From Endocalyx cinctus (Eukaryota; Ascomycota; Sordariomycetes; Amphisphaeriales; Apiosporaceae): 64,000 bases of DNA. The position numbers and the translations under genes are program-made. The DNA is taken from positions 4,924,441-4,988,440 of the forward strand of contig BCKC01000001.1 in assembly GCA_001600455.1 (NCBI GenBank), in the 5' to 3' direction. The notes beneath the pieces were generated by a model. It had not been told where the DNA came from. It worked only from the letters and a program-made list of their open reading frames with translations, and searched no databases. Within the stretch, counting starts at the first letter, position 1. Every line of letters starts with the position of its first letter. Positions 2,048 to 52,002 of the stretch are shown here, piece after piece.

Positions 2048-3656
2048 TCAAACCGAAATCAACTTAGCTAAGGCGCTCTGTGCTACCTCGGCCGCGTTCC
2101 AAAGCCAGTACGACTGCTGCATCTTAACCACGTCACTGTTCTTGTTGGCATCGGATGCCTCTTTCCTCTGTAGGTCACGCATCACCTGTGCCTCACGGTC
2201 TGTGACGTGAAGGTGTTCCCTCGCTCGGTACGTCGCCGCTTGTATCTGCTCGACACGCTCTTTACGCGACGCCTCGTAAGCCTGTAGCGATAGGCTTAGC
2301 TGCTCACGTGTCTGGATTATCGAAAGCAGCGTCGCGATCGCCGCGGCGTCGTCAACCGCTTGTGCGACTCCCTGTCCGAGGTAGGGCCTGGCTTTGAGTT
2401 AGTATTGAGTGGAGAGAAAATAATTCTAAAGGCGAAAAAGTATACATGAACTCACAGCATCGCGTGACATGCGTCTCCGAGGAGCATCGTGGTACCCTTG
2501 AACCAGACAGGTGAGGGAGGATGGGCAAACATGCGGAAATTGGGCACTTCAGCTGGTGCGAGGGCGATCAGCTTCCGCAATGTATTGTTCCAGCCCTCGT
2601 AGTCGGAGACGACGTCTTGCTTGTCAGCCATCGAAGTCCAGGACTCCTGGGTGTCCGCCGATGCTTGTCCGTGATCGGGGTGGATCAAGACCACGTTGAG
2701 AAGTTCGTGATTCCGCACGGGATACGCAACGACGTGTCTCGATGGACCATCCCAACGCACAGCCCACCGCCGTTGAACTAGTTCCAGCAACTCTGAGTCG
2801 GATTCAAGCACGCGACGGTCCAGCGTGAACCGATACGCTGCCTCTCCTGTGGGCTGCGCTCGCGCCGCCTCTGGGGGGCATACTTTCGGTTTGATGGACG
2901 ATTTTACACCGTCAGCGGCGATGACCAAGTCAAAGCCGTCAATGCGCTCGCCGTCAAACAGGACCACGGTGTTAGTCCCAGTGTTTACATCCGCTACCGC
3001 GGCCCCGAGACGGATCTCGATCTTGTCAGATAACTCACGAGCCCTCGCCAGAAGAGCAAGCTGAAGGTCCCCGTGGTGGATCGAGTTCTGCTTACCGACG
3101 GGGTTCGCCGCCGTACGCGTCACCAGCTCCCCTGTGTCCCACTTGGCGAGCTCGATACCGTCCAGGGGTACGCATGCCGAGATGTTATCCTCATTAAATA
3201 CTCCTTGGGCTATTTTATAATAGATTCGCATTAACAGTTTGATATCGCTTGAGATAGAATTTCAGACGCATAACGTACATTGGTACCATTGCTTCGTTGT
3301 AGGAGGTAAAGCGACCCCGGCCCCGACGTGAAGTAGCTACCTATAGTCAGCAACTATATGAGTATAATGGGCAAGAAATATATGCTTGCCTGAGATGTGG
3401 CCTCTAGAACAATTACATAATGTCCTCTATTTGCGAGCGCTATGGCGGCTGAAAGTCCCCCAATACCTTTATTTCAAGTATCAGCGTCGGAAACTTAGGT
3501 TGTAGACATACTGTTATACACACCGGCTCTATTAGCATATTAGCAGAGGTTTCCAAGTTAGTAATAGGTTTGGATCGTGAGGAAATTTAACTTCTCGTAC
3601 CCTATTACTATAACCCGGAACTGTAAAACACACGATTTATGATTGATGTCCGTCAT
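2048..3656 (-). pseudogene. Salicylate-hydroxylase-like FAD monooxygenase, probably damaged at its 5' end
   Basis: The C-terminal two thirds are clearly a class A flavin monooxygenase. An inner part (3231-2456) carries FDLVIAADGVKSSIK (the DG motif) and GDACHAML. A clean intron (2455-2388) joins it to the last exon (2387-2048), which continues PYLGQGVAQAVDDAAA, so the GD motif is intact. Upstream pieces are scattered. GIGGLSAAIALANRGHYVIVLEAT can be read from about 3466 and VGAGVALPP at about 3327, and there is an ATG at 3656 followed by FRVIVIG. An in-frame TGA at 3264-3262 could lie inside a GTACGT..TAG intron (about 3281-3214). I found no GT-AG intron that joins FRVIVIG to GIGGL in frame, and the expected Ala-Gly of the GAGIGG loop is missing. 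I therefore call it a likely pseudogene. A non-standard splice or a sequencing error could rescue it. Confidence 0.55.
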
Positions 3657-4222
3657 CCTATTTGGCAACTAATCTAACATTTCAAATGTTTCCTATGATC
3701 GTGTCGAGGATTTGTCGCAGGTTCGAACTATATTTCTTCTGACTACATGTCTTCCGATTGAATACAGGTCATAATTATGAGCTGATTGATCTCGGCAGTC
3801 CTCCCCTTATATGGGAAACACGTGATCGGTTCGAATCATATATTCCTGGTTTGTCCTCTCTCCAAGTAAGCCACCGTCCAACTCAGCTGCAGTAAGCATT
3901 CAATCAAGCGATCCCCGTTGTGCTTTTTCTGTCCTTCTAACTCTCGTATTTTATCAACAATTACTATCTTCGAAATTTACATCGCTAACTACGATGAATA
4001 TGTTAATTTTTTAACTTCTATGTAATTTATCCCCCCTTTTTTTTCATTTTACCATTTTTATATAGAGAAAAAAAAATCCACTCTTTCAGTCACGAATCTC
4101 TATAATAGCCACTGTAATAATACTAGTTGGGGCCTGCGGTGATAAAGTGGTTGGAAAGAGACGTCCTAATACCATATCTATAACTCAGATTACAGCATAA
4201 TCCTTAAAAAAGCATATAGACA
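3657..4222. other. Shared upstream region of two divergent monooxygenase genes
   Basis: Roughly 570 bases of AT-rich DNA between the damaged FAD monooxygenase (-) and the membrane-fused monooxygenase (+). No coding signal is seen. It would hold both promoters, but I can point to no specific operator. Confidence 0.4.
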
Positions 4223-6660
4223 ATGAATGGAAGCGACAAGAGAAAAGGTGTTCGAGTGATCATCGTCGGAGGATCTGTGGCCGGACTTACTCTCGCCCTA
4301 AGTCTTGAGCGTGCAGGGATCGACTACATCGTACTCGAAGCTCGAGACCGAATTGATCCTCAAGTTGGCGCCTCCATCGGCATTTTCTCCAACGGCGCTC
4401 GTATTCTCGATCAGCTGGGTGTCTATGATGATATCGAGAAAAATATTGACGAGCCGATATGGGCCGAAACACTGACAGGAGAAGGAACTCTGGTGCAAAG
4501 AGCCGACTCTCTCCGTCTTATAGAGTCACGGTATGTCATTTTTATGTTTTCATTCATATGTTTTTGTTCAAACGACCTTATACTCTACTGGGTCGAGTCT
4601 AATAGTCTACAGCACTGGATATCCCGTGGCGTTTCTCGAGAGACGGAGAGTCCTCCAGATACTGTACGACCACTTTCCTGACCGAAGCAAGATCCTCACC
4701 AGTAAGAGAGCAATTACTGTTAAACATCTTGATAACTACGTGCAAGTGAAATGTCAAGATGGCTCCGAGTACACGGGAGACGTAGTCGCTGGTGCAGACG
4801 GCGTACATAGTCAAATCCGTCAATTGATGTGGCGCCACGCGGAATCTATCAATGCCTTAAAACATTTGGAAAAGGATAAAACGGGTAAATAAGCACATTA
4901 AATCGCGCGTGAAATAATTTACAAGAACGCTAACATGCCACGTCGTAGCCATGTCCGCTGAGTATCGGTGTCTCTTCGGCATCTCTTCTACTGTGCCGGG
5001 GCTAGTAGAAAAAACGCAATACCGAACCTTTAACAAAGACTGGTCTTTCCTCATTGTTGTTGGAAAAGATAACCGGTGTTTTTGGTTCGTGTTCCAGAAG
5101 CTTAACGGAACATATTACCCTCCCAACATGCCGCGCTACAATCAAGAAGCAGATCAGAAAGAATTCATTAAACCGTTCATGGGCCGATATGTCTCCCAGA
5201 AGGTTACCTTTGACGCTGTGTGGAAAACGAGAACCGCCTCGACCCTAACAGTCTTAGAGGAAGCCCAGTATACTCACTGGACTTACGACCGGATCGTATG
5301 CTTGGGAGATTCTATACACAAGATGACTCCAAATATGTAAGTTATATTACCTATAACTGTGTTGGTATAATAACGAATTATGTGATAATACAGCGGCCAA
5401 GGCGGCAACTGGGCAATTGAAAGCGCCGCCGCCTTGACTAACGCCCTTCACTCAGTACTCGGGCGCACGAAGAATCAACCTACGACATCCGAACTCCAGG
5501 CAGCTCTAAACGAGTATGAGAAAGGTCGACAAGCGCGCACTATTGAGGTCTGCGAGACCGCCGGCTTCGCTACACGGCTCGAGGCCTTTGCCGGCGTTAA
5601 GCATCGTCTTATGGCCCTTTACATGGTTCCTTACGCAGGCGACATGCTCGTCGACGTGCACTGCCAGGCAGTATCCGGGGCGCCTAAGCTAGAATTCATC
5701 CCCTCGCCTGAAAAGTCTATGCGGGCCGGTACGGTGTTCCAGACGGTTGAATTTCTTGAGGCAGGCGATAACCCTGGCTGGAGAATGCTACGCGCTGCTC
5801 CATTACTCGCTCTGTGTCTTGCTGCGGCTCGTTACGTCGGATCTTTTGACCCGTCACTGCTTGGAGAACAGACGGATGGACCGGAGATTTCCCTGGGCGG
5901 TTTAGCTTCTCTACAGGTGATTGGTATGATTGAAACTATGCGTAGAGGCAACAATTTCACCTTGGCCGCTTTATGGCCCGTCTTTGCGGTTATTGGCCAA
6001 TGGAACGGGATCCTGATATACACGATCCCTGTGTACTTCTTTCTTCATTACGTGCAGTGCTCACCAAGCCGGTATGCTGCCCCTGACAATCGCCTCGTTC
6101 CAACGAATTACGCCCGGACAGTTGTCGCCGCCGCCGCCATCGGGTGTTTCCTCCCAGCTGCCGGCTTTGCGTTTTTGGGCGGTAGGACGTACGAGTATAT
6201 GTGGCAGATATATCCTGTGGCTGCGACACTAGTACATCGTCTCTTCGCGTCCTTCATTCTAGACACTACGACGATTGACAAGATTCGGAATCCTCGAGCG
6301 GATATGATGCATCTGCGTTTGGCCTATGCGGTTAGCGGTCTCGCTGGTGGTGCAGCGTACTGGTATTTCGGTGGCATGAGCTCAACGTGGGGTTATCTTT
6401 TAGACGTATTGAAGCTACGGAGCGCGCACGATAGGCTAGGGGGAAGCCCAGGTCACCACACCCGTTACTTTCATTCGATCATGTTTGGTGGTGGGCTTCT
6501 CTGGGAGATGCTCCACTTGCGAGACCTAAAGTGCGCGGGAAGGCTAAAGTCAAGTTATCTGAAAATAGCAGGAACTTTGATCGGCACGGCCGTACTGTTT
6601 GGTCCTGGTGCTGCGATCGCTTTGGGATGGGCTTGGAGAGAGGAAGTATTGGCACAATAG
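4223..6660 (+). CDS. FAD-dependent monooxygenase (epoxidase type) fused to a C-terminal multi-span membrane domain, copy 1
   Basis: Four exons (4223-4530, 4613-4884, 4949-5336, 5394-6660) join in phase to 744 residues. The N-terminal half is a PaxM-like FAD monooxygenase: [18 protein letters not shown] (dinucleotide fold, about residues 11-28), [14 protein letters not shown] (DG motif) and [16 protein letters not shown] (GD motif, about 312-327). Relatives in fungal meroterpenoid and indole-diterpene pathways epoxidise the terminal alkene of a prenyl chain. From about residue 448 the protein changes to a hydrophobic domain with several predicted helices, including MIETMRRGN and, about 30 residues on, PVYFFLHY. 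That layout suggests a protein anchored in the ER membrane. Whether the domain is only an anchor or a cyclase is unknown. It sits beside the cyclase-like gene, with which it converges. A paralogue with the same layout lies at 36,658-39,085. Confidence 0.9.
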
Positions 6661-7237
6661 GTTGGATTATATAATGAGGCAAAGAGTTAAAGACTATTCT
6701 GAGGTGGCTATAACCCGTCCACCGACATGTGAGGGAAAATTGTATGTTATCTAAATGGAGCATTTCATTATGATTGTGTGAAGTATACAGCTTCGAACAC
6801 AGTAGAAATCCCGATTTTAGAGTATCAAAGTCTGGTATATTTCGACGTTATATCCACTCAAAAGAATACGATTTAGTTGTAGATGAATCAATTTTATGTT
6901 TGTGTTGGGTTTATACCAGGTGATACATGAGTATCTACACAGTTCGAATTTCAACTTAACTAGAATCTTCATCTGCGACTCAAGTACATATATATCAGAT
7001 GACATGTCTAATACTTTTTCTTGCTGTACGTTGCTAGAAGCGCTACGTTAAGATAAGTGAGTCTACTGATAGCCATTTATCTTTCACCCTGCATTAAACC
7101 CATCCGTGAAGAGACGTGAAGTAGTTAGATCTCGCTTTACAGTTCATCGTTACCGTAAACACGAACGTATTCGGCTAGCGCCCTGAGAGGCCAAAATAAT
7201 TTGTAATTGGCAAAAAGCATGACCCTGATCTAGCATG
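6661..7237. other. Convergent intergenic region
   Basis: About 580 bases between the 3' ends of the copy-1 monooxygenase and the cyclase-like gene. It holds only 3' flanks; I see no gene and no repeat in it. Confidence 0.5.
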
Positions 7238-9623
7238 TTAGCTTTTCTTTCCTAAAAGAACTATCTGCATCGGAAAAAGATTTGTGTGATATACGTACCC
7301 ATGTTCAATGCCACCCTCGGGACCTTCTTGGAGCCACTGCCCCTTAGATTGCTGTCGAGACATAATGAGCCGTAATCCACGTCTGATCGGTTCTTTATCA
7401 GGATACTGTGCATGCATCAGTCCTAAGCAGGCCCACGCGGTTTGGATTACCTGCGATTTTTCGCGCTGTATGTATTTATCCTCTTTGAGGCTGAGGTAAG
7501 ACTCCCCCCAACCCCTGTCCTCTTTCTGCACTCCTATGAGGAAATCGCATCCGCGTCGAGCAGAGTCGCTGTTAGAGTAGGTCTCTCCGGCCAGGGCTAA
7601 GGCTTCGAGGGCGTACATAGTTCCATATGTGAAACAAATACCCCATTGCGCATACCACCCGCCAGACGGCTTTTGCTCGGCCCTGATAAAATCAATCCCT
7701 CTCTTCCTGGCCGCTTTGATGTCTGCGACGCGATACTCGGGATAGAACTTGGCGAACAAGGATAGGGCGGATATGGCCTCGGCCGTGCACTCCACGAAAT
7801 CGAGCGTGACCATGGTCTTCCCTGCGAACTCACCCATCTCGAGCCACGCCAGCTTGTGGGATCCCTGCCTCTTGTCCCAAATTCCGAAGCCGCCCGTGTC
7901 GTTTTGGAGGCCCAGTAGGCAGTCCGCACAGTCTTGTAGCCGGTCCGGCGAGATCATCGTTTTCGCCGCTAATGCTCCCGCATCTAAGTGGTGTACTTCT
8001 TGCAGCTCGAGAACGGCTTTTAGAGCCTCGGCCGTGCACTCGCTGAGTACGTATCCCTGATATCGAGTACTCCATGGCCATCCGCCCTTCCGGGGCTGGC
8101 GGTAGCACTTTTCCTGTCCAGGGACGTTTTCGCGCAGCTGGTGGTCCTCAAGGAATGCGTGTGCTTTTAAGAGGGTCAATCGATGTGTAGGCTCCTCAGC
8201 CGCCCCAGCAGCCGCCAGTGCCTGCACTACGAGAGACGTATCCCAGGCCTGCGTTCCGTCGCTGACGTTGCAGGACATCCCGTCAGACGTCATCCAGAAA
8301 TGTCGCAGCAGAGTCTCCCGGTGCATCCGCACGCCCTCGCTGTCTTCTCCATCGTGTATCAGGCACGCAATCAAGTTAGCGGCGTTACTTATCACCGAAA
8401 GCCCGATATACTCGCTGTTCTTGTCCTCGGCCTCGAGGAGCTCCCAGGCGCGTTTCTCAGCGAGGTCAACCGTGGCTGGCTTCCGCATGAAGGGTATATA
8501 CAACACGACCGTCAACCAGTTCATTAATCGAACTAGCCACCATTTTGGGTGCGCGTTATCTACCTCAGCGAGTGAGGCTCGGTGGCCAGCGAAGTCGATG
8601 CTTGAGTACTTCTCCTGCGTGTACAGCTCTGTTCGAAGCTGCCGTATTGTCTCGTCGCCAGTATACGTCCATTTCTTGGACCAGATGTATGATAACGAGG
8701 CGAGGTTAGTGCGCGTCTGAATGTACCACTTGCTCGGGTGGGTGGGGTCCGATTCAGACGCCAGGCTAGGTCACCGATCACATTATTAGCCAATCGCTCT
8801 TCTTCCACACAGTGAACTACTGAAAAGAAACAGCGTAATAACATGCAGGTGGGCGTTTGAAAATGTTGACCTACAAGAATTCGGGCAAGAATGGATTAAC
8901 ACAATCCCATTCCATCGCGCCGAGCACGCACAGCCAGAACTTGGCGATCCCGGGCACGTGAGTAGCACCGCCGTAGCTGTGCAGCAGGGTGCGGGCCCTG
9001 ACCAGACGAGGGTCGTCCGGACTCGCCCTGAGCAAGCGTAGGACGACGTAGTTGAGGACGGTGCCGATGGCCGAGCTCTCACCCTCGACATGCCAACCCC
9101 AGCCGCCATCCTCATCACGCTGTCGCGAGAACAAGTACCGTTTGATCTCGACGGCATACGCCGGCGGGATTGGCGACCCCGTCACATAGAGGCCGATAAC
9201 CGCGCATGGGAGCAACATCAGGGGACCGGCGCTCTCACCTCCCCAGGATCCGGAGGGCAGCTGCAACTGGCTGAGAAATGAACTTGCCGCTTTCACGGCC
9301 TGTAGGGGTGTCTGAGCTATTGGAAAATCTGGCAAACCCTGGGATAATGTCAGCACCAGTATCTTTACCTGCTACTCTCACTCCTTTAGAAATCATCAGA
9401 TGTTACCTACCGTGTCGAGACCGAGGTAGTGCTTGTCATAGACAGTTTGGGGCCATTTTTTTAGCTCCTCCTCGGATTCTAGATAACGCCATCCCTGCCG
9501 CCCTCCATCGTCGACGAGCCTCCAACGCAAGTAGTCTGTCTGCTCGTCTCCGTTGGCATCTCGGCTCAGGTGACCGTTCGCCGAAAACGCCTGCCATTGT
9601 TTCAAGCGAGTTTCCATGTTCAC
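7238..9623 (-). CDS. Oxidosqualene cyclase (lanosterol synthase) family protein with altered catalytic residues
   Basis: Three exons (9623-9411, 9338-8875, 8765-7238) splice in phase to 734 residues, or 732 if the second ATG at 9617 is used; both match family length. The N-terminus (DYLRWRL, WPQTVYDKHYLGL, TGLPDFP) and the repeated QW motifs (SGSWGGE, DEDGGWGW, QKEDRGWGESY, QQSKGQW) place it closer to eukaryotic lanosterol synthases than to bacterial hopene cyclases. Those enzymes protonate an epoxide with the Asp of the DCTAE motif. Here the site reads LSECTAEA, so Asp is Glu (residue 468, codon 8041-8039). The conserved active-site His (yeast 234, in a WWVHTR context) is Gln in WYIQTR (residue 242, codon 8719-8717). 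The C-terminal tail lacks the usual VFN-SC-I sequence. Inference: a neofunctionalised class II cyclase acting on an epoxy-prenyl polyketide rather than a sterol enzyme. An inactive or non-enzymatic protein is also possible. Confidence 0.88.
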
Positions 9624-10617: not shown

Positions 10618-11240
10618 TCATACTGCCTCCTGGTGCCTGTTCTTCTGCCCCTGTATCTTCTCCAAGATCCGAGACCGTGCTAGCTTTCCAAGCTCCAAGA
10701 CTGATGCGGCCGTGGTCAGTTCGAGGATGGAGACGTGCGACGCCAGGTTCTGGACCCACCAGCTTTGTAGCTCGATTGCGATAAGTGAGTCCACTCCTAA
10801 CTCTGCCAATCCCCTATCCATGTCGAGATCCGAGCTGTCCCCAAAGATCAATAAAGTCGTGAGACACTCAGCCACTTGACCGGCTAGGAATTGCGCCGTG
10901 CCCGCCTCGTCTGTCATCAGAGAGGACCCTATGGGGTCGCGCAAAGCTTCCTGCATGAATTGCTGCAGGGCGTCGTCTTTCTCTTTACCCCCTGAGCCTT
11001 CCTTTCCACCCTCTCCTAACTGGTTTTGATTAGCACGGTCAACCTTGAGACCCAAGCCGCGTGCGTCAGGAGGGTGTTGCCCGAGTCCAACTACAAATTG
11101 CGATTGATTCATATAAGCTGAGCTAGTGGTCGGGAGAGCCGGTCCCGGGAGCCATGAGGCTCTGATGGCTAGCTGAAGCGAGCTGAGAAAATCATTCTCC
11201 CGGATAACTAGAGAGTAACGGAGTTAGAAATGCTCTTTTG

Positions 11241-11279
<39 letters not shown>

Positions 11280-14200
11280 ATGACTATGTCGACGGGGTCT
11301 AGGAGGGTGGGCCAGTAATTTTTTACATATATAATAGAAATTATATCGTCTACTGAGTTTATTACTCTCAAGAGGGAAATTATCTGAAAGTGAAATAACT
11401 TACGCTGGGCCCCTGCGCGGCGGAGATTCTCGAGAATAGCCGTGTTCTGACTAACAAACCCGATATCCTCCATGACCCCTAGATCAACTACCGAGGCTGG
11501 TAGGCCTTGCTGTTGTCGAAATTGTACGAAAGCGTCGAGGAAAGTACTGGCTGCAGCATAATTGGCCTGCTTTGGGTTGCCCTGAACACCATAAATGGAA
11601 CTGAGCAGGACGAAAAATTCAAGCGGTTGATCTTTGAGTGCGTTGTGAAGGTTCCACGTCCCTTGCACTTTGGCTTCAGTAGCGCCTTGCCAACTCTCGA
11701 TGGTCATATCAAGCAGTGCCTCGTCCTTATCATCAAATACTGTTAGTTAATATTTGCCTTTTTCCTAGATACATTCACATCGCTGTATTTAGGCGATTAT
11801 GGAAATTGGATGTTACTCACCTTGAGCACGAGGGCCAGATGTAGCACTCCCGCCACTGGCTTTTGCGCATTAGCAACTAGGGATTCGACCGCGTTCGTAT
11901 CGGCTACACTCCCGGTGGTGATTTGTACATGGCATCCGAGTGCGTTCAATTCATGTATTAGCGATGTTTCCGCCTCTCCGATGGGCGAAGCCGAGCGCGA
12001 CATAAAGATCAGAGACCCAGCACCTCTTTCAGCCAGCCAAACGGCCGCGCTCTTCCCCAGGCCGCCTAACCCGCCGATTAGTATGTAGGACCTATCTCTG
12101 CGGAAGCGCATGCCATCGGAAGACGGTGAACTAGGTAGCATCTGGAGATCCTCCGGAAACTCAATGCAGACGGCACCAATAGGACGACGAGTGCCCTGGA
12201 ATTGCTGGAATGCCTGTCTAATGTCACTTGGACTGAAACAGGTGATAGGTTTGATCGTCTTGACTAGGCCATCCGTATATAGCTTGACGCTCTCTTCAAG
12301 GAGGCTATAATATCGGAATTAACATTAGTCATATGCATCAAGAAGAGAGAGGATGATGCTTACCGTCGAGCTACCGAAGGCTTTTGAGCCATCAAAGCCG
12401 CGATATCAAGTCCTTGGAATCCTCGGTTTCTAGAAAACATGGACATATCGAGTTTACCGTGGGCAGCGGAATCTCTACTTGCCAGTTCGACGAGATTACC
12501 ACCTTCGGCGACGCAGTTCCAGCTGCTGTGTAGCAATTCTCCCGAAAGAGTATTCAAAACGACGTCTACACCACGGGACTTCGTGCCCTGCATTATACCG
12601 GGAACGAAAGACTTGGCGTCTTGCGAGAAGATTCTACACTCGGGAATTCCTTGCTCCGATATGAGATATTCTTTTTCCTCATCGGAAGCAACAGTTGCGA
12701 ATATCTAATGTATATATTAGATGAAGTCAGTAAGCCATGCAATAGTACTCATGGGTGAATGCATATCAGCTTCTTACCTCTGCCCCCTTAATCCTTGCTA
12801 CCTGCACTGCAGCAATACCTATTGCGGATGAAGCGGAGTGGATAAGGACCGTATCTCCTACAGCTAACGAGTTGAGTTCTAGGAAACCTCGTATAGCAGT
12901 GGCGTATGCGGTGGGTAGTGTTACTGCTTCCACGAGGTTCAAGCCGTTGGGGAGCTTCACGCATGACTGTACCGAAACCCGGACATGCGTTGCGAGGGAG
13001 CTGGGAGCCCAACAGAGAACATGGTCTCCGACGTGGAAACCTCTATCTTCGGCACTGGCGTGTGAACGAATAACAGTACCTGCACACTCCAGGCCCAAGC
13101 CTCGGTTATTATGCACAATCCCTAAAGCAAGTTGGGCATCCTGTAGAGGTATGGTGAATTAGCGAAGGTGGTGCAAGAGCTCATAATATAAATGTCGTGG
13201 ACTTAGCTCGCCTTTCTACTTACTTGATAGGTGACCGAGGAGGCACGGACGGCAATTTCAATCTCTCCTTCTTTAAGTGGTGTCGATAAAGATTCATATG
13301 ATCCCTCCCATTGTAAGCTTGTTAGAAGACCTGGCTTCGCGATACGAAGCTTTCGGACTACCTGCTCCTCAGCAGCCGGTGGAAGCACTTGGTCGGCATC
13401 ACGAGTGATGTAGCGCGGAACATGCACCACGCCGTTCACCAGAGCATACTCGCAATCTAAAAGGCTCCCACATTCTTTCTTTTGAATCTTAGCCAATACT
13501 TCCACAACCGAGTTCTGATTCGATGTCTCAAAAACCGTGTCTACGTCTAGCTCCATGGTTGCAAACCACGTACCAAGTTCTAGACGGACAGTGCGGGCAA
13601 ATCCTAGCACCATAGCCGAGTAAGGGTTTTTTGATGCAATTTGCGCCGGCCTCGTCAGCCATAAGATTCTGTGGCCTTGGAGATTAGTGATGAAGCTTAT
13701 GAGTCCCCGGAGAGTTTTATCCGTAAGATCCTGGAAGAAGGTCTGATACTTATCCTGTACATCGAGTAGTGAGACGACATCCATGGGAGTGGTAGGCAAA
13801 TCCGATAAAGAGCATAGAGAGACATCGTAACCTCTAGATTGGAAGCTAGACATAATATTCTTTACCAGGCTCGTTGTCTTTGCCATCTCAGGGTCTGATA
13901 CCAGAAGGCCCAAGGACTTAGAAGAAGTGTCCAGTATCTCATTGGCATCTACGGCACGTGCAGTGATAATATTATCGAGCTGAAAAGGAGCGTCCTGGTC
14001 CATTATGGCCGTCACTTTTTCAAATCCGGCTTCATGTAAGACGTTCTCCCACTGATTGGCTTGTATATAAGGCTCGTTGGGCCTCCCGTCTGGTTCTCCT
14101 AGCCACCAGCCCGATAAAGTTCCCTGGTAAATGGAGTCATATTAGTAAATCTAGTTCGGTTGAATTCGCAAGTATAGAGCGCGATATTCTTACCATAATG

Positions 14201-17200
14201 TAGTTTACCCATTTCGCCTCTGATATTACCAGTCAGCATCGATGTCATGTACAGCTAATACAATTAGGTTGTCGACATACCTGAACAAAGTTCCAGCAGA
14301 AACAGGCGTCCTCCTGATCGGAGCAGTGATCGGCAATGCCTCATTGTTTGCAGCAGATCAGGAGTAGCGTGAAGAACCTTGCATCTAGTTAGCATAAATT
14401 CTAACTTATAGTCGAGGCGCCAAGAAAGAGTGAACATGACTTACATTCGCAGCCACAACAAGATCATAGCTGTTAACCTCTAGACCCTGAGAAGCCGGAT
14501 CGTCGCTGATGTCTAGCACGGTGTACTCAATATTTGGATATTCACTAAACCGTTCCTTGGCCGCCTTGAAGAAACCGGACGATATGTCTGTGTAGGTGTA
14601 TGTACTAAACAAGCATTCCCCAGTAGCGGGATCCGTTAGGGCTGGAACTATCGTCGAGGTGAACCCGCCTGTGCCGGCTCCGATCTCAATAACACGTAGT
14701 GTTTTCTTGGCATGACCTAGAAGCTGGAAAAAATGCCGGTGATCTAGCATGTTGAAGAAATTGTATATCTCCATAAGGAGGTTATCCTTGATCAATACCG
14801 CAAGTGGCTCTATCACTCCTGTAAAGATGTCCTCGACATTGTCGAAAATACGCGTCACAGCTAGGGCGATGTTCCGCACGGGAGTCTCGAGAGCCTCGGC
14901 ACTCAACTTCTTGATCGCTTCTTTGCATTCTAAGGAGTTCATGGTGAATATTGTATCTGTATTTTGTACAACCTTACTGCCATTTCGTTGGATGTTATCG
15001 ATATAGTCTTCGTTCCATTGCTTAAACCGGTTGAAGTGATGGTGCGTACTTTCTGGTAGAGACTTTAAAATTCTCGTAGTCTCGAAAACGCAGAGGATGT
15101 TGAGTCTCTCGACGAGTTCTAAACAACTACTATAATCCGTAGTTTGATGCACCAACGACTGAATCTCGACAAGGTCAATGTCGGGTCGCCACTGTAGCAA
15201 GCGGAGCTCCTGCATCACATCATTTTCAACACTGTTGGTTACGTTGTCTAGAAGACGAAAACTGATTCCTTTGGCTTGCAGTGCTATGGTGCCACCTATG
15301 GTATGGATATGTCCATGGGCTCTCAAGGTGTCAGAGCTATCCGAGACGGTGTATGTATCGCAATAAAGGTTGTCGAAGTTATTCACTCCGCTACCGACAT
15401 ACAACTCATCAACGTGGACGGGAAGTGTTAGCTTGCTCATTAATCTTGTATGTCCCTTTACTGAGCCTAAAATGCAGCATTGTAGCAGTTGATCAACCGT
15501 TGTCGGATGTAGTGTATCGGAAGGAGAGTCAAGCTCTCTGGCAAGGATTGCCGAAACGCTATCCCGGAGTATGTTGTATTGCAGATTTTGTATCCCCTGA
15601 AATTTGGGCCCATACTCTAGACCAGCTTCCTTAGCGGCCTTATACCACTTATCAACTGGTACTTTTCTAAGCCCATCAGTTTCAAAGAACGAATCTTTTT
15701 CAAATGGGGGTGATGACATGACATTTCCGGCATGGACCTCTCCAACGCAATGCCTTGTCCATTTATGATCATTGTTGTATGATATGATGCTAAACTCAAA
15801 CCAAGTCGAGTCTTGATTATCGGTCAGTCGGCTAGGCTGTAATCGGGTTATTATTTCGGTCGACTGCGCCTGCTGTAATGGCATTGCTGTCCCAATGGAG
15901 AGTGAGCGGATGGTGAAGTCTTCGGAGCCAGATACTTGTCGGATAGCTTCTCCGGCCATGGCGACGTAACCTGCCGCAGGAAAGACTACATCATTGGCCA
16001 CTATATGGTCTGCAAGCCATGGTATCTCTTTTAGACTAAGTAGCTTTCGCCAGCTTGGTTCAATATCATTTCCGCCGATGAGCCGCGCGCCTAGAAGTTC
16101 ATGTTCCGGGAACGAGCGCGTGCGAAAATCTCGCGAGATACGACTCTCGTTCCAGTACGATGCGTCGTGGGTCCAGGCGTATGGTGGCAAGTTATGCATC
16201 GTTGTCCCTTTCGGATTCATAGCGGAAAAGTCGGGGATTACACCTTGACAATAAAGCTGGCCTGCGGCGGTGAGCAGTGATGTTGTTGAATCAGTACCCC
16301 TGCTGAGACAACTGTTATATACGACTTTATGATCTAGCTCCTTGCATATCTGACGGAATGGTCCCGATAGTGCTGAGTGGGGTCCCAACTCAAGAGCCAA
16401 GCCAAATTTTTCAGTGCTTCTCTCCAATGCACATTCCACTGCGTCAAGAAACAGGACTGGGTTTTCCATATTAGATCTCCAGTATGCCGGCCCGAGTAGA
16501 GCGGGATCCTGAATAATCTCCCCGGTGACAGAAGAGAAGAATGGGATGGGCAGTGCGCCAGTCGAGGGGGTAATGGTGGAAATGAGTGCCTCATAAACTA
16601 CTCCAACCGTTTTCATATGGTCTAATTATCAGAGATCTTCAGTTAGTCATATTAACAAATTCTCTTCCAGACACACAACCTCACGTTCATGCAGGCAAAT
16701 ATTTATGAAAAATATGCACATACCAGAGTGATACGCCCTATCAATCTTGAGTTTTCTAGCCAACGCTTCCGGCCGATGCTGGCGGACCCGCTCCAGTGTA
16801 TCTTCTACAGCACCGTAGTCTCCGGAAATTGTGACACTCGATCGACTATTCTCGCAGGCAATAGTACTTCCGGTACTGAGTAACGCCGACATCTCGTCAC
16901 GACCAAGCCCTACGGCCGCCATTGCTCCCGGTCGCCGTTGCTGGACACTGGCAACACCCCTATAGAATGCTACCAGAATAGCGTCTCTCATGTTAAGTCC
17001 GTCAGCCGCGTAAGCAGCTGCGATCTCTCCGCTAGAATGGCCGACGACACCGTCGGGGGTAATGTTCCAAGTCCGCAAGAGATTGACCAGCCCGATCTGG
17101 ATGGCGGTACAAATGGGCTGGGCATGTTCTGCAGAATGAATGGACTTTTCATTCAGCAACAACTCCTCCATACGCCACGCAGGCGGTTGAAGAGTCTTGG

Positions 17201-19194
17201 AAAGCCATCTGTCCATCTGCCTGATATCTTCCGCGAAGGACGGGAAGGTCCGGATCAACTCGCGACCCATACCGGGCCACTGGGCTCCCTGACCGGTAAA
17301 GATGAATAATAAGCCCTTACCCTTCGATGAATCGGAGCTCCGGACAGCGAGACCTGGTTGATACGATGTCCCGTCCGTTACACAGAAAGACCTCACCCTC
17401 TGATGATGTCTCTTAGCACCCAAAGTGTACGCGAGATCCGTGATTCTAAAATTGCCAGAATCGACAAAATTTTGGTAGTTAGTCAGAACTTTTGTAAGAG
17501 ATGTCTCGCTGTGGGCAGAAAAAACAAGAAGCTGTTGAGAGGGTTTGATTGGCGTCTTCAAGTCGCCGTTGACTCCGATGATACTATTAGTACCATTGAT
17601 ACCATTGATACCATTGATTACATGAGCACCATTAATACCGTTACTAACACCAGTATCATTGACGCCATTGGTACAATTGACTCCGTTGACTCTGGTGATA
17701 GTATAATCATGGGATGTACAGGCAGTTGAACTTAGTTCTTCAAGAATTACATGTGCATTAGCACCACCTAGACCGAAAGAGTCGACGCTAATCCTGCGAG
17801 TTCGGTCTTTAGGCCATGGGATGGCCTGAGTTGGCACTTTTAGTTTGGCTTCGGTGAATGGAACTATTTGACAAAGCTTTAGTAGTTATTCAACAAAATA
17901 ATGTATACAGATCAATATTAAAGATCGTGGGGAAGAAGGGTTCGCTAACTTTTGGAATTGGGATTTAAATATTTGATGTTGGGAGTGATAATTCCTCGTT
18001 CGAGACTAAGAATAGCTTTGATAAGACTACTCAAACCGGCAGCCCCTTCTCCGTGACCAATATTCGGCTTGACCTAGAGACAAAAAGTAATTAATTAGCA
18101 TAATGCATGAATACATCGCCATATTGTATAATAGGGTTTAATTTAGTCGTACTTACGCTACCTATATAGGTCTCCTGAGAGTCTTTGCCCCCGAAAACCT
18201 GAACAACTGCAGCGACCTCAAGAGGGTCTCCTGTTGCCGTTCCAGTGCCGTGGCACTCGACCACAGGTGTTTCTCCAGGATTGCTGATTCCAGCTTTTTC
18301 GTATGCCCGTCGTATCAAACTTGCCTGGGCTTCTGTGCTGGGATTCGTAAGACCGACCGTCTTTCCATCTGAGTTTATTGCCGTGCCGCGGATAATTGCA
18401 CGAATAGGATTTCCGTCTCGTAAAGCATCATCTAGTCTCTTAACGTATACCGCGTTGACGGCGTCAGCTCGCGCGTAGCCATTTGCAAATTCATCGAAAG
18501 TGTTAGAAGATCCGGAAGATGACAACGCTCCCAGGTTATCGAGGGCCATAAAATATTCCGGCGATAAGAGGAGGTTAGACGCGCCTACTAATGCTCCAGA
18601 GCAATCTCCCCGCTGAAGGGCCTCACATGCAAGGTGCAGCCCTATTAAACTCGACGAACACCCGGCCTTGACAGTCATACTTGGACCGTGTAAATCCAAT
18701 TCGTATGACACGCGGTTGGCTAGAGTAAAGTCGTCCATACCCGTGATTCCGTAAACATTTCCGTCCTGCGGATCTCGAGCTTGCATCTGCAGCCAATCTT
18801 GACCGAAGCTTCCCGCGTAGACGGCAATGTCTCGCCCGCGCCAGCCTAACTCTCCAGCGTTCTCTAGTGACTCGTACATGACCTCCAGCAGTAATCGTTG
18901 CTGAGGATCTACTCGGGCTACTTCGGCCTGAGACATACTGAAGAAGGCCGCGTCAAATTTGTCGACTGGCTCATCAAGGAAGTAGCCGTGCTTCATCGAC
19001 AAGCTACTGGCTCCGCCTGATTCCTTGTGGAAGCCATCAATGTTAAAACGCTCGGGAGGAATTGGTCGCCGTGCATCTTTCTGGTTGACCAATAAGTCCC
19101 AGTAAGACTCTTCATCATGACAGCCTCCAGGTAACCTGAGACCAATGCCAACAACGGCTATAGGACTTGGTGTAGAAGACTCTCGTGCTATCAT
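10618..19194 (-). CDS. Highly reducing type I polyketide synthase (KS-AT-DH-MT-ER-KR-ACP)
   Basis: Twelve exons join in phase to about 2,533 residues: 19194-18157, 18073-17950, 17863-16724, 16621-14445, 14377-14281, 14219-14194, 14123-13224, 13140-12778, 12704-12364, 12304-11821, 11725-11404, 11207-10618. Domains in order: KS (AGCSSSL Cys about 179; [20 protein letters not shown]), AT (GHSSGE Ser about 664), DH ([16 protein letters not shown]is about 973; Asp about 1144 in TVDQLLQ), C-methyltransferase ([10 protein letters not shown] about 1412-1421), ER (about 1810-2110), KR (IGGLGGLG about 2145-2152, Tyr about 2286) and ACP (LGVDSL Ser about 2478). No release domain follows. The start at 19194 gives the proper KS N-terminus; an upstream in-frame ATG at 19242 adds 16 atypical residues. 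It should build a reduced, possibly methylated acyl chain and hand it to the SAT domain of the adjacent divergent NR-PKS. Odd points are an Asn-Gly-rich KS-AT linker and an atypical ER nucleotide loop. Confidence 0.95.
11241..11277. repeat. Homopolymer A run (37) inside an HR-PKS intron
   Basis: An uninterrupted run of 37 A on the plus strand (T on the coding strand) lies in the last HR-PKS intron (11403-11208). The flanking exons are in phase without it, so it does not affect the protein model. Its exact length may be an assembly uncertainty. Confidence 0.9.
17567..17690 (-). repeat. Coding minisatellite, Asn-Gly-Ile/Val repeats in the HR-PKS linker
   Basis: On the plus strand the DNA repeats ACCATTGAT-like units. 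On the coding strand it gives about ten NG-x triplets (such as [18 protein letters not shown]) between KS and AT at about residues 446-487. A flexible linker is the simplest reading. Repeat number is likely to vary between strains. Confidence 0.75.
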
Positions 19195-20084
19195 GATGCC
19201 AAGACTGCTAAAAAAGCAGATATAATATTTCTCCAGTATCAAGTCGTGTTCGAGGAGAGTCTATGTATTGAAATAAGACAAGACGTATGATATGAAGTGG
19301 CGAGAATGTATTTTGCCAAAGTCAGCTTCCTTTCAAATCTAGCAGCAACGCGGTGAAGACTCTCACAAGACTGTCTCTGTGCCTATCTTTCTCTCTTTCT
19401 CTCCTTCAACCACCTTCATATGTCTCACACTTTAGTGCTGAGATGGGTCAACAACTTGCTACCCGCTAAATACATAAACCGCTTATCTCTTTCGTGACAT
19501 AAAGGCAAGATACCCGGGTAAGCTGACTGATAGATAAGAACCGACACGGCTTTCAGCTCGCCTTACCTCAGATATGTATTTGTCCCATACCTGTGATGCG
19601 TCTAGATTGCCGTGGATCTCTGTGGGAATCGACCCTAGCAGTCCCGTTTCGTCTTGCCCATTTTGCTATCTCGTGTCCCGAATACTCACACAATAATACT
19701 TCGAGACTGGTTAATTTGAAAGCTAAGTTGGCTGAGCCACATCCATGCTTATGGATCTGCAAGTAAGCTTTGTTAGGCTCCGCAAAGGCGCTCGGAATAG
19801 GGACGTCCTATTAACTAGTTCACACTCAGCATCCACAAGACATTGACGACGCCAGGTATTCCTCATTAGTTTCGCAGAAAGTTGAGGTGTACTAGTACGC
19901 AAGAATTTTCATGCTAGATCATAACTATCAGAATCCCAAACGCGTTATCGAGTTTACCTATCAGAATTAGTAATAAGAATAATTCATATACTCAAGCTGA
20001 TTTCACTGCCCTGGTGATGGATACTGCTGCACGGAACATACGCCACCATTTTTCAACACTTTAATTTCTTTTAGTATCAACACA
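19195..20084. promoter_or_regulatory. Divergent promoter region between the two PKS genes
   Basis: An 890-base gap separates the start codons of the HR-PKS (-) and NR-PKS (+). No other gene is apparent in it. Head-to-head placement is typical of collaborating fungal HR/NR-PKS pairs and would allow shared control, presumably by one of the two Zn2Cys6 regulators nearby. I cannot name a binding site with confidence. Confidence 0.55.
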
Positions 20085-23000
20085 ATGGCTGCAGAAAAAA
20101 TTCTGCTCTTCGGCGATCAGGCAGATACCCCGATCCCCATGATTCGTAGACTTGCAGATCGAACCAGCCAGTCCAAGAACCTCGAGAATTTCTTTCAGAG
20201 TGCCGTTGATAATGTTCAACTGGAGGTCGCCAAACTTACTCCCGATGAGCAGGACACTATAGGCTCGTTCCATTCGGTGCAAGATCTGACGCTGGCTCTA
20301 GCGGACAAGACTGACCGCCATGGCATCGCTCAAATGGTTTTAGTGTTTGCCGCTCGCATCGGCGAGCTCATACTGTATGTTATTCTCTAAATAGGTTACC
20401 AAGTTTTTTTTTAATGGACTAACATAAATGTTCGTAGACATTCGGAGAGCAACCCAGCCTTGCTGAGCAGTTCAACGCCTGTTCTTTCACTAGGGATCTG
20501 CGGAGGACTCCTTCCTGCCGCTGCCGCTGCAGCATCTACTAACGTTAGTGAATTGATAGAAGTGGCCAGCTATCTCGCTGCAGTTAATTGTCGGGTTGCT
20601 GCTGCGATATCGAGACGCTCTGTTCAGATTGAAGACAGTACAGACAGCTGGGCATTCTCAGTTCTGGGAAAAGTTGTCAGCGAACTTCCTAAGCTTTTGG
20701 CTCAGTTCCATAAAGAATATGTATGGCATGATCTTACATCTGACAAGCTCTGCGATCTTTAATGAACTCGGGCAACAAACTAATATAACGCGCAATATTA
20801 GTCAATTCCACGACATCGTCAAGCGTATGTAGCAATTAGCACACCTACTTGGGCTACCATTTTTGGACCGCCGTCAGTCCTGAAAAAATTACTACGAATG
20901 CCTACATTAAGTAGCTGTGAGATTTCCAATATACCGGCATTTGGAGCAGTTCATGCAAGTCATCTCGCTGTCCCAGACTTTGATGAACTCGTGCCAGAGA
21001 GCCCGCTGCTTAACAAAGTAATTAAACCACACTTCAAGCTCATTTCGGGGAGCAAGTATGAGCCATTTTCGGGATCTACGTTAAGGGAGTTATTACCAAA
21101 AATCATGCTCGACATCTTCCAGAACAGCACCAATCCGGCCCGGCTGTTCGATCTGACTGGCTCATATCTCCAGAAGGGGAAAGACATCTCACTCTATATG
21201 CTGGGGGCTACAAGTTATCTAGTACTCTTACGACGATCCTTGCATTCCCAGAAATTCCAGGTCGCGTTGAAGACAAATGCGCCTAGCTTGTCAAGCACCG
21301 AGCTTCGCGGAGGTTCGGGCTCTGTCGCGATTATCGGTATGTCAGGCCAGTTTCCAGGAGCAGCAAGTGTGGACGAAATGTGGGAGGTGCTCATGCGACG
21401 GGAGGAGCTTCACAGAAAGGTATGTATACTTCCATAGACGTGTACAACACGTAATTGGTTGGCACATTGAAAAATAAGTAATAAGCGGACTAATACTCGA
21501 TGTTTTATAGGTTCCTCTAGATCGATTTGACCCTGATGACTATTTGGATGAGTCTGGACGAAGTCCCTATGCAATCACATCGCCATATGCTTGTTTTCTA
21601 GAGAACCCGGGACTCTTCGATCACAAGATGTTCAACGTCTCGCCGCGAGAAGCAATGCAAATGGATCCGGGTCAGCGGCTAGTGATGCATGCGGTCTATG
21701 AGGCTCTTGAAGATGCCGGCGTCTGCAACAATGGTAGCTTAGCTACGGATAACAAACGCATAGGCACCTACATAGGCGATGGCAGCGACGACTGGAGAGA
21801 CCTTCAGCAACATAGCGGTGAAGGAGTAGACAAATACATTATTCAGGGTACGCAGCGGTCTTTCACTCCGGGACGCTTGAATCATCACTTCAAGTGGGAA
21901 GGCGCTACATTTTGCGTTGACTCTGCTTGTGGCTCAACAGCTTCTGCCGTCGGTCTGGCCTACAGATCATTGGTGAGCCGTGATTGTGATACGGCCATCG
22001 CTGGCGGATCCAACATCATAGCCACTCCATTTTGGCAATCTGCGCTAAGCAAAGGCGGTTTCCTGTCGACAACTGGAGGGTGCAAGACGTTTAGGGGAGA
22101 TGCTGATGGCTACTGTCGCGGAGAGGCGGTTGGGATCATTGTTCTCAAAAGGCTAGAAGATGCCATGCAAGATAATGATAATATCATCGCGGTCATTCGT
22201 GGCTACGCTCGGAATCATTCAGCCGAAACTGTATCCATCACTCGACCCCATGCTGCGACTCAGGAACGCGTATATCGGAAAGTCCTCCATACATCTGGCT
22301 TAGAGCCCAGCGATATCAGCTACGTTGAGATGCACGGCACAGGAACCACCGCCGGAGACTCAGCGGAGCTAGAGTCCGTCTCTAATGTTCTCGCACAGAA
22401 AGGAGCGCGGGACACACCGCTCGTAGTTGGTGCGATCAAGGCCAACCTGGGTCACGCCGAGGCGGCATCGGGCATTTCATCCATCATGAAAGCGGCCATT
22501 ATGTTTGAGAAAGGTGTCATTCCTCCACAGGTTGGAATACCTGAAAAATTGGGACATTATGACTGTCTTGAGCAAGGCCTGATCCTAGTTCCCGGGGAGC
22601 CCGTTCCGTATACGCGCCAGAGCATCGGCCGGAAGAGGACGATGATAGTAAACAACTTTGATGCCGCTGTAAGTACTCACCTTTTGGTATTTATCTTTGA
22701 TTAGACGATTTTTCGTATTAATGTGAAATGTTACTATGTCAGGGAGGAAATAGCTGCTTCATATTAGAAGAACCTCCCATGCCTCCAGTTAGAGCACTAG
22801 ACCCCCGGCCATTCCATACCGTCACCATTTCGGCACATAATCTGTCATCACTAGAGCAGTACAAACGCCGTCTTCTAGATTTTTTAGTTGAGAATCCATC
22901 AACAAATCTCGCAGACTTGGCTTATACGACCACAGCGCGGCGGATGCATCACTCTCTACGTTCCGCCTATGCCGGTGGGAGCATCCAGAACATTATTGAT

Positions 23001-26000
23001 GGCCTGCAACGTGATCTCCGGCGAGACCAAAATAAGGAAAAAGCTGTAGGAAAGGCTTCCCCGATCGTATTTGCCTTCACTGGTCAAGGTGCGCATTACG
23101 CGGGAATGGGTGCAGGCTTGTTCAAGTCCTCGCAGTCATTCAGATCAACGATTGTCGGATTACAACGTGCTAGTTTAGCGCACGGATTCCCGCCTTTTAT
23201 CCATCTTATTTCTGACCCAGAAACAGCTATTGATGGCGCCACAATAATCCAGATCAACTTGGCCCTAATCACTCTGGAGATGTCTCTCGTGGACCTCTGG
23301 AAAACCTGGGGTATCACACCAGATATCGTCATCGGTCACAGCATTGGTGAATACGCCGCCTTGTATGCCGCAGGCGTACTTTCATCCACTGACGTCATAT
23401 ACCTCGTGGGCAGCCGGGCTCGGCTGGTTCAGAACAGTTGCACCGAGGGAACCCACGGAATGCTGTCGATCTCAGGCACTACCGATGATGTGGCAGTCAT
23501 ACTAGCTGACGAGAGTTTAAATTTAGCACAGCGCTGTGAGGTGGCTTGTCGGAATACTCCCAGCATGATAGTGCTTAGCGGCGAGAAGCAAGAGCTGCTT
23601 CGAGTTGAGGATTTGCTTAAAGCGCGCAAGATTAAATGTCGATTGTTAGATGTACCATACGCCATGCACTCGCGTCAGATGGAGGGTGTCTTACCAGGAC
23701 TCCGTAAAGCCGCCGAGGGTGTTCAGTTCAAAGCTCCAAGTCCCAACATTAAAGTCATTTCTACTCTACTGGGCGTCGAGCACGTGGTTTTCGATAGTGA
23801 ATACCTCCTAAGGCATACCAGAGAGTCCGTTAACTTCCAACAAGCAATTTCCCACTGTGTTGAAAAAGGCCTCATTGATGAGTCAGCGCTCTGGTTGGAG
23901 ATGGGTCCCAACCCCATATGCCTCGGTCTCATTCGGTCGAATATCGCTAGCATCACGTCTGAGTGTGTGCTGCCCGCACTTAAAAAAGGGGAAGACAACT
24001 GGAAGTCGGTTTCAAATATAACAGCGGCTTGCTACAAAGCCGGGAAGACCGTTAGCTGGCGAGCATACCATCAGAATTTTGCGAAAAACCTATCACTTAT
24101 TAAGCTGCCCAAGTATTCCTTTGACACCCGAAACTTCTGGATGCCATACAAAGCAGTGAGAAGTGTCGCGAACGGAAGTGAGGGGGCACTGCAGCCTATC
24201 TCGGCGTGTCTACACTACTTGCTAAAGCAGGAAGATAATAGTAAAGAGCAGTCAGCTATTTTCAAGGCGACAGTATCGAAGCCCTCGCTGCTTTCCATGA
24301 TTCAAGGACACAAGCTCTCTGGCATTACGGTTTGTCCGGCAGGCGTGTTCAGCGAGATGGCGCTCACAGCAGCCCGATATCTCCTCAGTGAAGGTTCCTG
24401 GAATGCTACTTTCCCGCCGCTTTCGGTCTTTGACACACAGATCGACCATCCCATCATGCCCGAACCTAATAACGCGAACCAAGCTATCCAAGTGATCATC
24501 AAAAGATCGAAGGGGTCAGATGAGTTTGCGGTCTCCATATCAGACCACGCCAAGCCTTCGGTAGTCTCCTCAAAGTGCATCGTCCGACTCAGGGACAGTC
24601 ATGCTTTCGAGGCCGAGCGAAGCCGCGTGCTAGAGGTTGTTCAGCCCAAGATCGCGAAACTGAAGAAGGCCGCAGCGGCCGGACTTGCCAACAGGTTCCA
24701 GGGAAAGTTGTTCTACCGACTATTCGCAAACCTCATGGGCTACGACGGGCAATACGAAGGTGTGCAGGAAGCCATCGTCAGCAGCGATTTCACCGAAGCC
24801 TTGGCGTCCGTCCGACTTCCCAGACCTAAGAGTGGTATGAACGCTGATGATTCGTGCACGCTCTCTCCATACTGGATCGACGCTCTCACTCACCTAGCGG
24901 GTTTCCTGTTTAACGGAAACCCTATGAGTTCTGGAGACGACGTCTACATCGGAACGCACATGGAGCGCATGGAGATCGTGGCCAAAGACTTCTCTCCAGA
25001 TGTTACGTACCAGAGTTATGCTTTTATAGAGCATCCCGAAAACTCGGATATTTACCGCGGCCATGTATATATCCTGGACGGTAACTACGTCGTCGGATTT
25101 CTTGAGGGCGCTCGGTTCCGCAAGATGCCACGCCACACGTTGCACAGAATTCTGGGCAAACCAGACCCTCCGAAGAAGTCCAAGGAAATTTCTACGCCAT
25201 CCAAACCCCTGACAAACGGCGCTACAGCGGTCCTAAACGGTAAAAATAGCGACGTCAACGGCCACATCGCCACGCCACCAGTAGTAAACAGCGGTAGTCA
25301 CAACAAGCCACTCTATAAGGTGTTGATCGAGCAGATCATCGAAGAAACTGGCATGGAAGGGGACGAGTTAACACCTGCGACTTACTTCGCCGAAATTGGT
25401 GTCGACTCACTCATGAGTATCTCGATCCTCGCAGCGCTCAAGTCAGAGACAGGAGTCGAGCTCAATGCCTCCTTTCTCATGGACTACCCTACTCTTGAGG
25501 ACGCCCAGAGACAACTGCGGCTGCTCGAACGAAATACCGCAGATAAAGCCGAGGAAGACGCCCCCTTCGTAAATGGCAACGGTGCGACGGGTCTGCCGGA
25601 GTGCAACGTGGTCCTCATGCAAGGGTCCCCCGTCACCGCCGGCTCCCACCCGCCCCTCTTCCTCATCGCCGACGGCGCCGGCTCCGCTGCCGCGTATATC
25701 CACCTGCCAAAGCTAGGAAGCGACGTGACGGTCTATGCGGTTGAGTCCCCATGGGTCAATGATCCCGCCAATTTTACTTGCAGCTTTGAGCAGGCCGCAT
25801 CATTGTACCTGGCGGCGATACGGTTGAAGCAGCCAGAGGGACCGTACATTGTAGGAGGATGGTCAGCGGGTGGAGTCTTCGCCTACGAAGTTGCGAGACT
25901 CCTCCTCGAGGCCGGCGAGGTCATTTTGGGGTTGATAGTCATCGATATCACGGGACCCCGGCAAGAGGATCATACTAAAGTAGCGCCACCGACAATGGAA

Positions 26001-26472
26001 ATCATCGACCAGATCGGGATGTTGAGCGGGATCGAAAGGAATTTTGATGATGAGGCGGTCGAGTCCCAGCGCCTCAAAAGGCACATGCTGAGTACTGTCA
26101 CCTGCTTCAGCAAAATGGACCCGACTCCCATGAGCCCTGGTCGGAGGCCAGGATGCACGTTCGTCGTCTGGGCCAAAAAAGATGTCTTACCTAAGAAGGC
26201 GCTGGAGGCTCTGCCCTCGGGCCTCAACGCCTGGTTCTACCCTTCATCGCACGCTGAGATCGGCCCGTATGGTTGGGACGCGCTAGTCGGTGAGGAGATG
26301 GAGATAGTGCAGATCGAAGGTGATCATTTCTCCATCATGACAACTCCCGAGGTAAATCTTTTCTTTATCCTAACTCTAACACTTACACAGGCACTAACTG
26401 GTTTTTATCTAGGTCACACAGCTCGGGAACATTGCCCAGCATGCTGTTCAGAAGTGTTATCAAATGCTGTAG
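20085..26472 (+). CDS. Non-reducing type I polyketide synthase (SAT-KS-AT-PT-ACP-TE)
   Basis: Six exons (20085-20374, 20438-20720, 20802-21419, 21511-22668, 22743-26351, 26413-26472) join in phase to about 2,005 residues. Seen in order: SAT with GICGG (Cys about 118) and IPRHRQAYVAIS; KS with VDSACGSTASA (Cys about 537) and MHGTGTTAGD; AT with GHSIGEY (Ser about 983); product template with QGHKLSG (His about 1305) and WIDALTHLAGF (Asp about 1495); a single ACP with GVDSL (Ser about 1671); and a thioesterase with GGWSAGG (Ser about 1824), an Asp in WAKKD and a His in GDHFS (about 1978). There is no C-methyltransferase. A complete SAT next to a divergent HR-PKS implies loading of an advanced acyl starter, then aromatic ring formation in PT and release by TE, probably to an alkyl-substituted resorcylic-type acid. 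The ring pattern and exact release mode are inference. The last 19 residues come from a small 3' exon. Confidence 0.95.
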
Positions 26473-51840: not shown

Positions 51841-52002
51841 TATGTCAAGTGTGGACTTCGGTCCACCGGGTAAAACTTGTATCTAGGAGCGTGTGATAAT
51901 TAATATAGAGTCTAACAAGTAGTAACTATTCACGAGGAGGATATCAGGTCTAAATTGATATTATATAGGCATGCTATCCAAGTACCAGGCCAAAATATAT
52001 TA

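Follow-up and report, generated by a model that had tools for sequence, protein, structure and literature searches.

The window, by which we mean the whole 64,000-nucleotide stretch of Endocalyx cinctus DNA analysed here, carries on its minus strand (7137..9617) a gene of the oxidosqualene cyclase family. Very probably its product is a class II terpene cyclase of the AtnI type, part of a meroterpenoid cluster resembling those for cochlioquinones and arthripenoids, and the gene probably derives from a lanosterol synthase of Eurotiales via transfer. The assignment is based on the gene model, Pfam, TIGR01787 and homologs, among them AtnI of Arthrinium sp. (P0005), which is 65% identical to the window cyclase. 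The earlier note knew of no well-described fungal meroterpenoid cyclase in which the catalytic Asp is replaced by Glu and a conserved His by Gln. For the key change this is not supported, since AtnI, an enzyme already described, carries the same Glu; the pair of Glu and Gln belongs to one subclade. AtnI-type cyclases are already described, and the window gene adds a member with the active-site changes of the Gln subclade. The AtnI group would represent a sterol enzyme converted to a meroterpenoid cyclase, instead of the usual Pyr4 route. Its signature, Glu for Asp combined with pocket changes, offers a sequence test against lanosterol synthases, whose name these proteins often bear, and a short list of residues for testing how a C30 cyclase might come to accept a C15 chain that bears an aromatic head. 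Moreover, the nesting of the group within the lanosterol synthases of Eurotiales suggests the site of recruitment.

The cyclase gene comprises four exons (9617-9411, 9338-8875, 8765-7299 and 7224-7137) separated by three introns of 72, 109 and 74 bases, all GT..AG, and its frame is open up to the stop codon, giving a product of 741 aa. The fourth exon encodes the C-terminus FANYKLFWPLRALAEYVRVYGNDEL, in agreement with the ends of the homologs P0001 and P0002. A gene end at 7238, as modeled earlier, was rejected because this position lies inside the third intron and the final residues of that model are intron-derived. When the protein is aligned with human oxidosqualene cyclase (1w6k), for which the residue letters were verified, Gln240 in WYIQTR corresponds to human His232 and Glu466 in ECTAE to human Asp455, and Tyr238 and Gln240 stand where lanosterol synthase has the pair Trp230 and His232. 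The Glu and Gln replacements described in the earlier note are real, whereas its 734-residue model, the end at 7238 and the numbering 468/242 have to be corrected to 741 aa, 7137 and 466/240. A base error or chance is an unlikely source of the two residues, since the Glu is common to 12 other sequences and the Gln to three relatives of the same subclade.

The protein scores above the cut-offs for Pfam PF13249 and PF13243 and for TIGR01787, and below those for TIGR03463 and TIGR01507. The AlphaFold model of P0001, which is 82% identical to the window cyclase, has a mean pLDDT of 89.6 and a pTM of 0.91, and its best PDB match is 1w6k with a TM score of 0.92. DCTAE, the motif by which ERG7 is recognized, reads ECTAE in the window cyclase. 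A bacterial-type squalene-hopene cyclase was rejected because LSEC is found where DXDD is expected and TIGR01507 stays under its cut-off. Pyr4-family cyclases are small, membrane-spanning proteins, and this identity was rejected as well for a protein of 741 residues with oxidosqualene cyclase domains and fold.

To follow the two replacements through the family, 193 rows were aligned, consisting of 191 proteins from two protein searches (best 120 of 289 and best 120 of 611 matches, the scored candidates being those that share most words), the window cyclase and the lanosterol synthase of the host. At the Asp455 column 180 rows show Asp and 13 show Glu, and among the matches listed all Glu rows are relatives of AtnI: the window cyclase, P0001-P0009, P0023, P0025 and P0060. 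Twelve of the 13 were placed in the clade by an 87-row quick tree that left out P0060, which was assigned by similarity only and whose Glu is less certain because its gene model is faulty just past this residue. The His232 column is composed of His (182 rows), Gln (5), Glu (3), Thr (1) and gaps (2), with Gln in the window cyclase, P0001, P0002, P0009 and additionally P0010. Within the 13 Glu rows, four have Gln and eight have His, while P0023 is without that region. The earlier note asked whether both residues are fixed among close homologs: Glu is shared by these 13 rows, Gln by four of them. Judged from these sequences, Glu is a mark of the whole AtnI group and Gln a mark of one subclade. 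A literature search, with most subscription journals outside its scope, found no paper with the motif ECTAE or ECTGE, and a mention of the Glu in print is possible. Outside the Glu clade, the lanosterol synthase-like P0010 of Thermomyces lanuginosus keeps Asp and has Gln at the His232 position. P0115, P0117 and P0120 (Fusarium, Thelonectria) form a separate, long-stemmed oxidosqualene cyclase group that has Glu at His232 but retains Asp, and these may be further cyclases outside sterol synthesis.

The replacements extend beyond these two residues. Nine near-full-length clade rows (P0009, P0018, P0023, P0025 and P0060 were left out) were compared with 59 ERG7-like rows, namely the first 60 non-clade homologs of more than 690 residues minus P0018. 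In 213 columns the ERG7-like rows are at least 95% conserved, and 29 of these columns are replaced in all nine clade rows. The replaced columns make up 14 of the 34 in the pocket and 15 of the remaining 179 (p 8e-6 in Fisher's test, with a position list fixed before the data). An alternative list gives p 2e-7; it was drawn up after the residues had been seen, and the earlier list is the one to use. In both lists the pocket positions, and the end of the pocket to which they are assigned, are putative, being based on background knowledge of 1w6k and not on its coordinates. Replaced in all nine rows are human Tyr98, Trp192, Trp230, Val236, Gly380, Thr381, Val453, Asp455, Val520, Phe521, Ile524, Phe696, Asn697 and Ser699. 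Trp387, Ser454, Met525, Cys533, Thr534 and Trp581 are unchanged throughout, and so is Cys456 in eight of the nine rows, P0007 having Val. Several of the bulky residues replaced in the clade line what we take to be the sterol-ring half of the pocket. The pattern of replacements fits an enzyme in which the acid and the A-ring end are retained and the far end is opened for an aromatic head.

A further 14 columns are altered solely in the Gln subclade (three rows). Five of them belong to the listed pocket positions: in human numbering, Met replaces Phe103, Gln replaces His232, Val replaces Pro337, and Trp replaces both Phe444 and Tyr503. The subclade consists of the window cyclase, its relatives from Monosporascus CRB-8-3 and Astrocystis, P0009 and P0023, in the last of which the Gln region is missing. 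Its members might make a different ring system or take a different head group compared with the arthripenoids. This variant of the best explanation, which it does not exclude, draws on the five pocket columns and on the full support of the subclade in the tree (100/100), but we regard it as rather unlikely, because the kinds of neighboring genes match the arthripenoid cluster, the substrate may be the same and the changes may just tune packing. In its wider form the idea is put forward tentatively: a second round of pocket changes in the Gln subclade could have led to another skeleton or head group and, more broadly, the Glu and the loss of the sterol-ring pocket could go back to a single conversion of a Eurotiales lanosterol synthase that was then moved between fungal classes.

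The origin of the clade was addressed with a careful tree of 39 hand-picked rows, without the partial sequences P0009, P0023, P0025 and P0060 and the long-branch P0018. In this tree the Glu clade (nine rows including AtnI) stands apart from the lanosterol synthases with a support of 100/100. The Gln subclade within it is equally well supported. P0010 of Thermomyces and P0241 of Talaromyces join the Glu clade with a support of 100/100, and all of them fall with the Eurotiales rows in a group of 17 rows (100/100); a pairing of the clade with P0010 alone has less support (92/82). The lanosterol synthase of the host joins the Xylariales rows (100/99). AU tests reject a union of the Glu clade with the three ERG7 rows from Xylariales (p 2.9e-5) and a monophyly of Eurotiales that excludes the Glu clade (p 0.0045), p values that are optimistic because the groups were named after the 87-row tree had been seen. 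A duplication of ERG7 within the host was rejected as the source of the cyclase by the tree and the AU test. Members of the Glu clade come from Sordariomycetes, the Dothideomycete Plenodomus, the Leotiomycete Bisporella, which is the first branch, and Aspergillus. Hence, a Eurotiales lanosterol synthase was probably recruited and then spread between classes by transfer; the nesting is supported by the tree, and from it we infer the direction and the transfer. Some caution is due, since a Leotiomycete and no Eurotiales row branches first and the stem is long (0.36).

The sequence P0018, from a contig of 2745 bases, is oxidosqualene cyclase-like, with Asp kept and Thr at the His position. In the 87-row tree it sits on a long branch beside or inside the Glu clade: the group of 13 has a support of 100, and the branch that would separate P0018 from the 12 Glu rows one of 5. 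Of the 14 pocket positions changed in the clade, P0018 deviates at 11 from the consensus of ERG7. This hints that the pocket may have changed before Asp was exchanged for Glu, and P0018 is possibly an intermediate or a third kind.

The genes around the cyclase are of the kinds present in AtnI-type clusters, namely an HR-PKS, an NR-PKS bearing a TE, a UbiA prenyltransferase and FAD monooxygenases (FMOs). Coordinates of these genes are ORF spans. The HR-PKS (10621..19260, minus) shows KS, AT, DH, MT, ER and KR domains by Pfam and an ACP that is weak and below cut-off. The NR-PKS (20001..26498, plus; 20001-20387 outside the Pfam scan) contains SAT, KS, AT, a weak DH/product-template region, ACP and TE. 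The UbiA prenyltransferase (27229..28474, plus; PF01040, E 6.2e-31, match in 27674-28474) is AtnF-like. FMO1 (2051..3261, minus; PF01494, E 1.3e-6) is a candidate for the hydroxylation or decarboxylation of the aromatic ring. FMO2 (4220..6660, plus; PF01494, E 5.4e-17), whose C-terminal part is hydrophobic and, judging the translation by eye, probably membrane-spanning, is a candidate prenyl epoxidase. FMO3 (36574..39085, plus; PF01494, E 4.9e-22 in a scan of residues 1-575 encoded by the joined ORFs) likewise has a hydrophobic C-terminal part and is a candidate second prenyl epoxidase. A Zn2Cys6 transcription factor (33458..35429, plus; PF00172, PF11951) might regulate the cluster. Beyond the left edge of the window, at a distance of 4.5-5.8 kb, there is a P450 ORF (C1:4918624-4919955; 92 of 410 candidates scored), with a probable N-terminal P450 piece, recognized by eye, nearer to the window, and this P450 may belong to the cluster. 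No acyltransferase was recognized among the window ORFs given to Pfam, a subset of all ORFs; a Nectria cluster is reported without acyltransferase in a review (PMC12565317).

Four further features were seen in the window. A gene for an NADPH-dependent FMN reductase (1081-1749, plus) near the left edge adjoins the FMO genes. Large ORFs occupy 43866-47720 (plus), the two largest without Pfam match. A HET-domain (heterokaryon incompatibility) protein is encoded right of the cluster (47897-50017, minus). Another FAD monooxygenase, identified by Pfam, and a short-chain-dehydrogenase-like fragment, identified by eye, are found at 51605-53802 (minus), apart from the main cluster.

The association of cyclase and prenyltransferase recurs in relatives. 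The window UbiA has 66% identity to AtnF (P0130) and 78% to P0121 of Monosporascus; the locus numbers of P0121 and of the cyclase P0001 differ by three. With the best 120 of 125 matches of the UbiA protein search, and contigs of equal size taken as the same, relatives of the cyclase and of UbiA share one contig in seven of the 12 other clade members among the matches listed (P0001/P0121, P0002/P0123, P0004/P0127, P0006/P0128, P0007/P0124, P0008/P0125 and P0009/P0139). Among the same matches, none on the same contig was seen for P0003, P0005, P0023, P0025 and P0060, and the cyclase matches listed include no clade cyclase for the AtnF-like UbiA proteins P0122, P0126, P0129 and P0131 (Stachybotrys elegans, Paramyrothecium, Bipolaris sorokiniana and Rhypophila).

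Three cyclase-family genes were found in the host genome (44.76 Mb, 15 contigs): the window cyclase, a squalene-hopene cyclase and a lanosterol synthase. The last, on C3, is an intact ERG7 of 747 residues with Asp and His in place; it is 80% identical to a Poronia protein and 78% to a Hypomontagnella protein, values that make a Xylariales-type host probable, and 43% identical to the window cyclase. The separate, normal ERG7 that the earlier note proposed to look for is thus present, and together with the distinct clade it supports the view that the window cyclase has left sterol synthesis. It is very improbable that the protein is instead a triterpene synthase, for lanosterol or another product, that has diverged without giving up oxidosqualene as its substrate and stands in the cluster by chance. 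Such an enzyme would explain the near-whole-length match to oxidosqualene cyclases and the naming of the entries P0002, P0008 and P0025 as oxidosqualene:lanosterol cyclase, but not the exchange of the catalytic Asp and of His232, the changes at many pocket positions that are conserved elsewhere, the grouping with AtnI, the recurrent linkage to UbiA and the presence of another ERG7 in the host. The squalene-hopene cyclase (C4:814030-816054) is intronless and of the bacterial type, with a DVDD motif and TIGR01507 above cut-off. A P450 match (C4:817222-818463) lies about 1.1 kb beyond it, and the two possibly form a small triterpenoid cluster.

Cyclization of an epoxyfarnesyl chain on a polyketide, as the earlier note expected, is the most likely function predicted from the AtnI clade and the cluster content. 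AtnI and the cluster suggest Glu466 as the acid, the sequence of steps and the type of product; the substrate and a role of Gln240 are likewise predicted. The HR-PKS would make a reduced starter, which the NR-PKS might accept through its SAT domain and convert to an aromatic acid. One FMO may then hydroxylate and decarboxylate this acid, UbiA would attach farnesyl, and one or two FMOs could epoxidize the farnesyl chain. Finally, Glu466 of the cyclase would protonate the terminal epoxide and fused rings would close, the loss of Tyr98, Trp192, Phe521, Ile524 and Phe696 presumably making room for the aromatic head where a sterol would have its C/D rings and side chain. Asp455 is the proton donor of lanosterol synthase. 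That its loss (Asp being present in 180 of 193 rows) left a catalytically dead protein, with cyclization carried out by another gene, a Pyr4-type cyclase in the window being conceivable, is scarcely credible, since Glu, like Asp, is an acid and is present in AtnI, which has genetic support, both neighboring Cys and the Trp residues are kept and the reading frame is intact.

The preferred reading, an AtnI-type cyclase acting on a prenylated polyketide, can be compared with several known systems. MstE, a class II cyclase of cyanobacteria (6sbc, a structure with farnesyl dihydroxybenzoate), takes up an aromatic acid that carries farnesyl and is a weak fold match to the P0001 model; it is about half as long as the window cyclase, with 13% identity, and requires no epoxide. 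Human lanosterol synthase 1w6k resembles the window cyclase in fold, length and the residues Trp387, Trp581, Cys456 and Cys533, but Asp455 is exchanged for Glu, His232 for Gln, Trp230 for Tyr, Trp192 for Ile, Phe521 for Ala, Ile524 for Thr and Phe696 for Ile, and the window cyclase falls in a separate clade. According to PMC6678101, a hydrogen bond connects Asp455 with lanosterol in 1w6k, and Trp230, His232 and Asn382 are among the conserved residues. The Pyr4 membrane family provides the usual fungal meroterpenoid cyclases in the general scheme given in a study that selected for Pyr4 (PMC10882540, Yan and Matsuda 2024). By its description in PMC11296971, StmT of the Aspergillus stemphone cluster is similar, being proposed to initiate the closure of a tricyclic ring system in a comparable PKS/prenyltransferase cluster, whereas the stemphone NR-PKS is reported there without TE and the window NR-PKS has one. 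AtnI shares with the window cyclase the family and the clade, the Glu in place of the catalytic Asp, a Tyr and an Asn at human positions 230 and 236 and the kind of cluster. According to the review (PMC12565317, citing Zhang et al. 2018, Angew. Chem.), deletion of atnI leads to polyketides bearing farnesyl, and AtnI is suggested to start ring formation via protonation of the terminal epoxide. AtnI differs from the window cyclase in having His232, Phe444 and Tyr503 (human numbering) in place of Gln, Trp and Trp, and ECTGE in place of ECTAE. Its motif indicates that Glu is compatible with the cyclization function.
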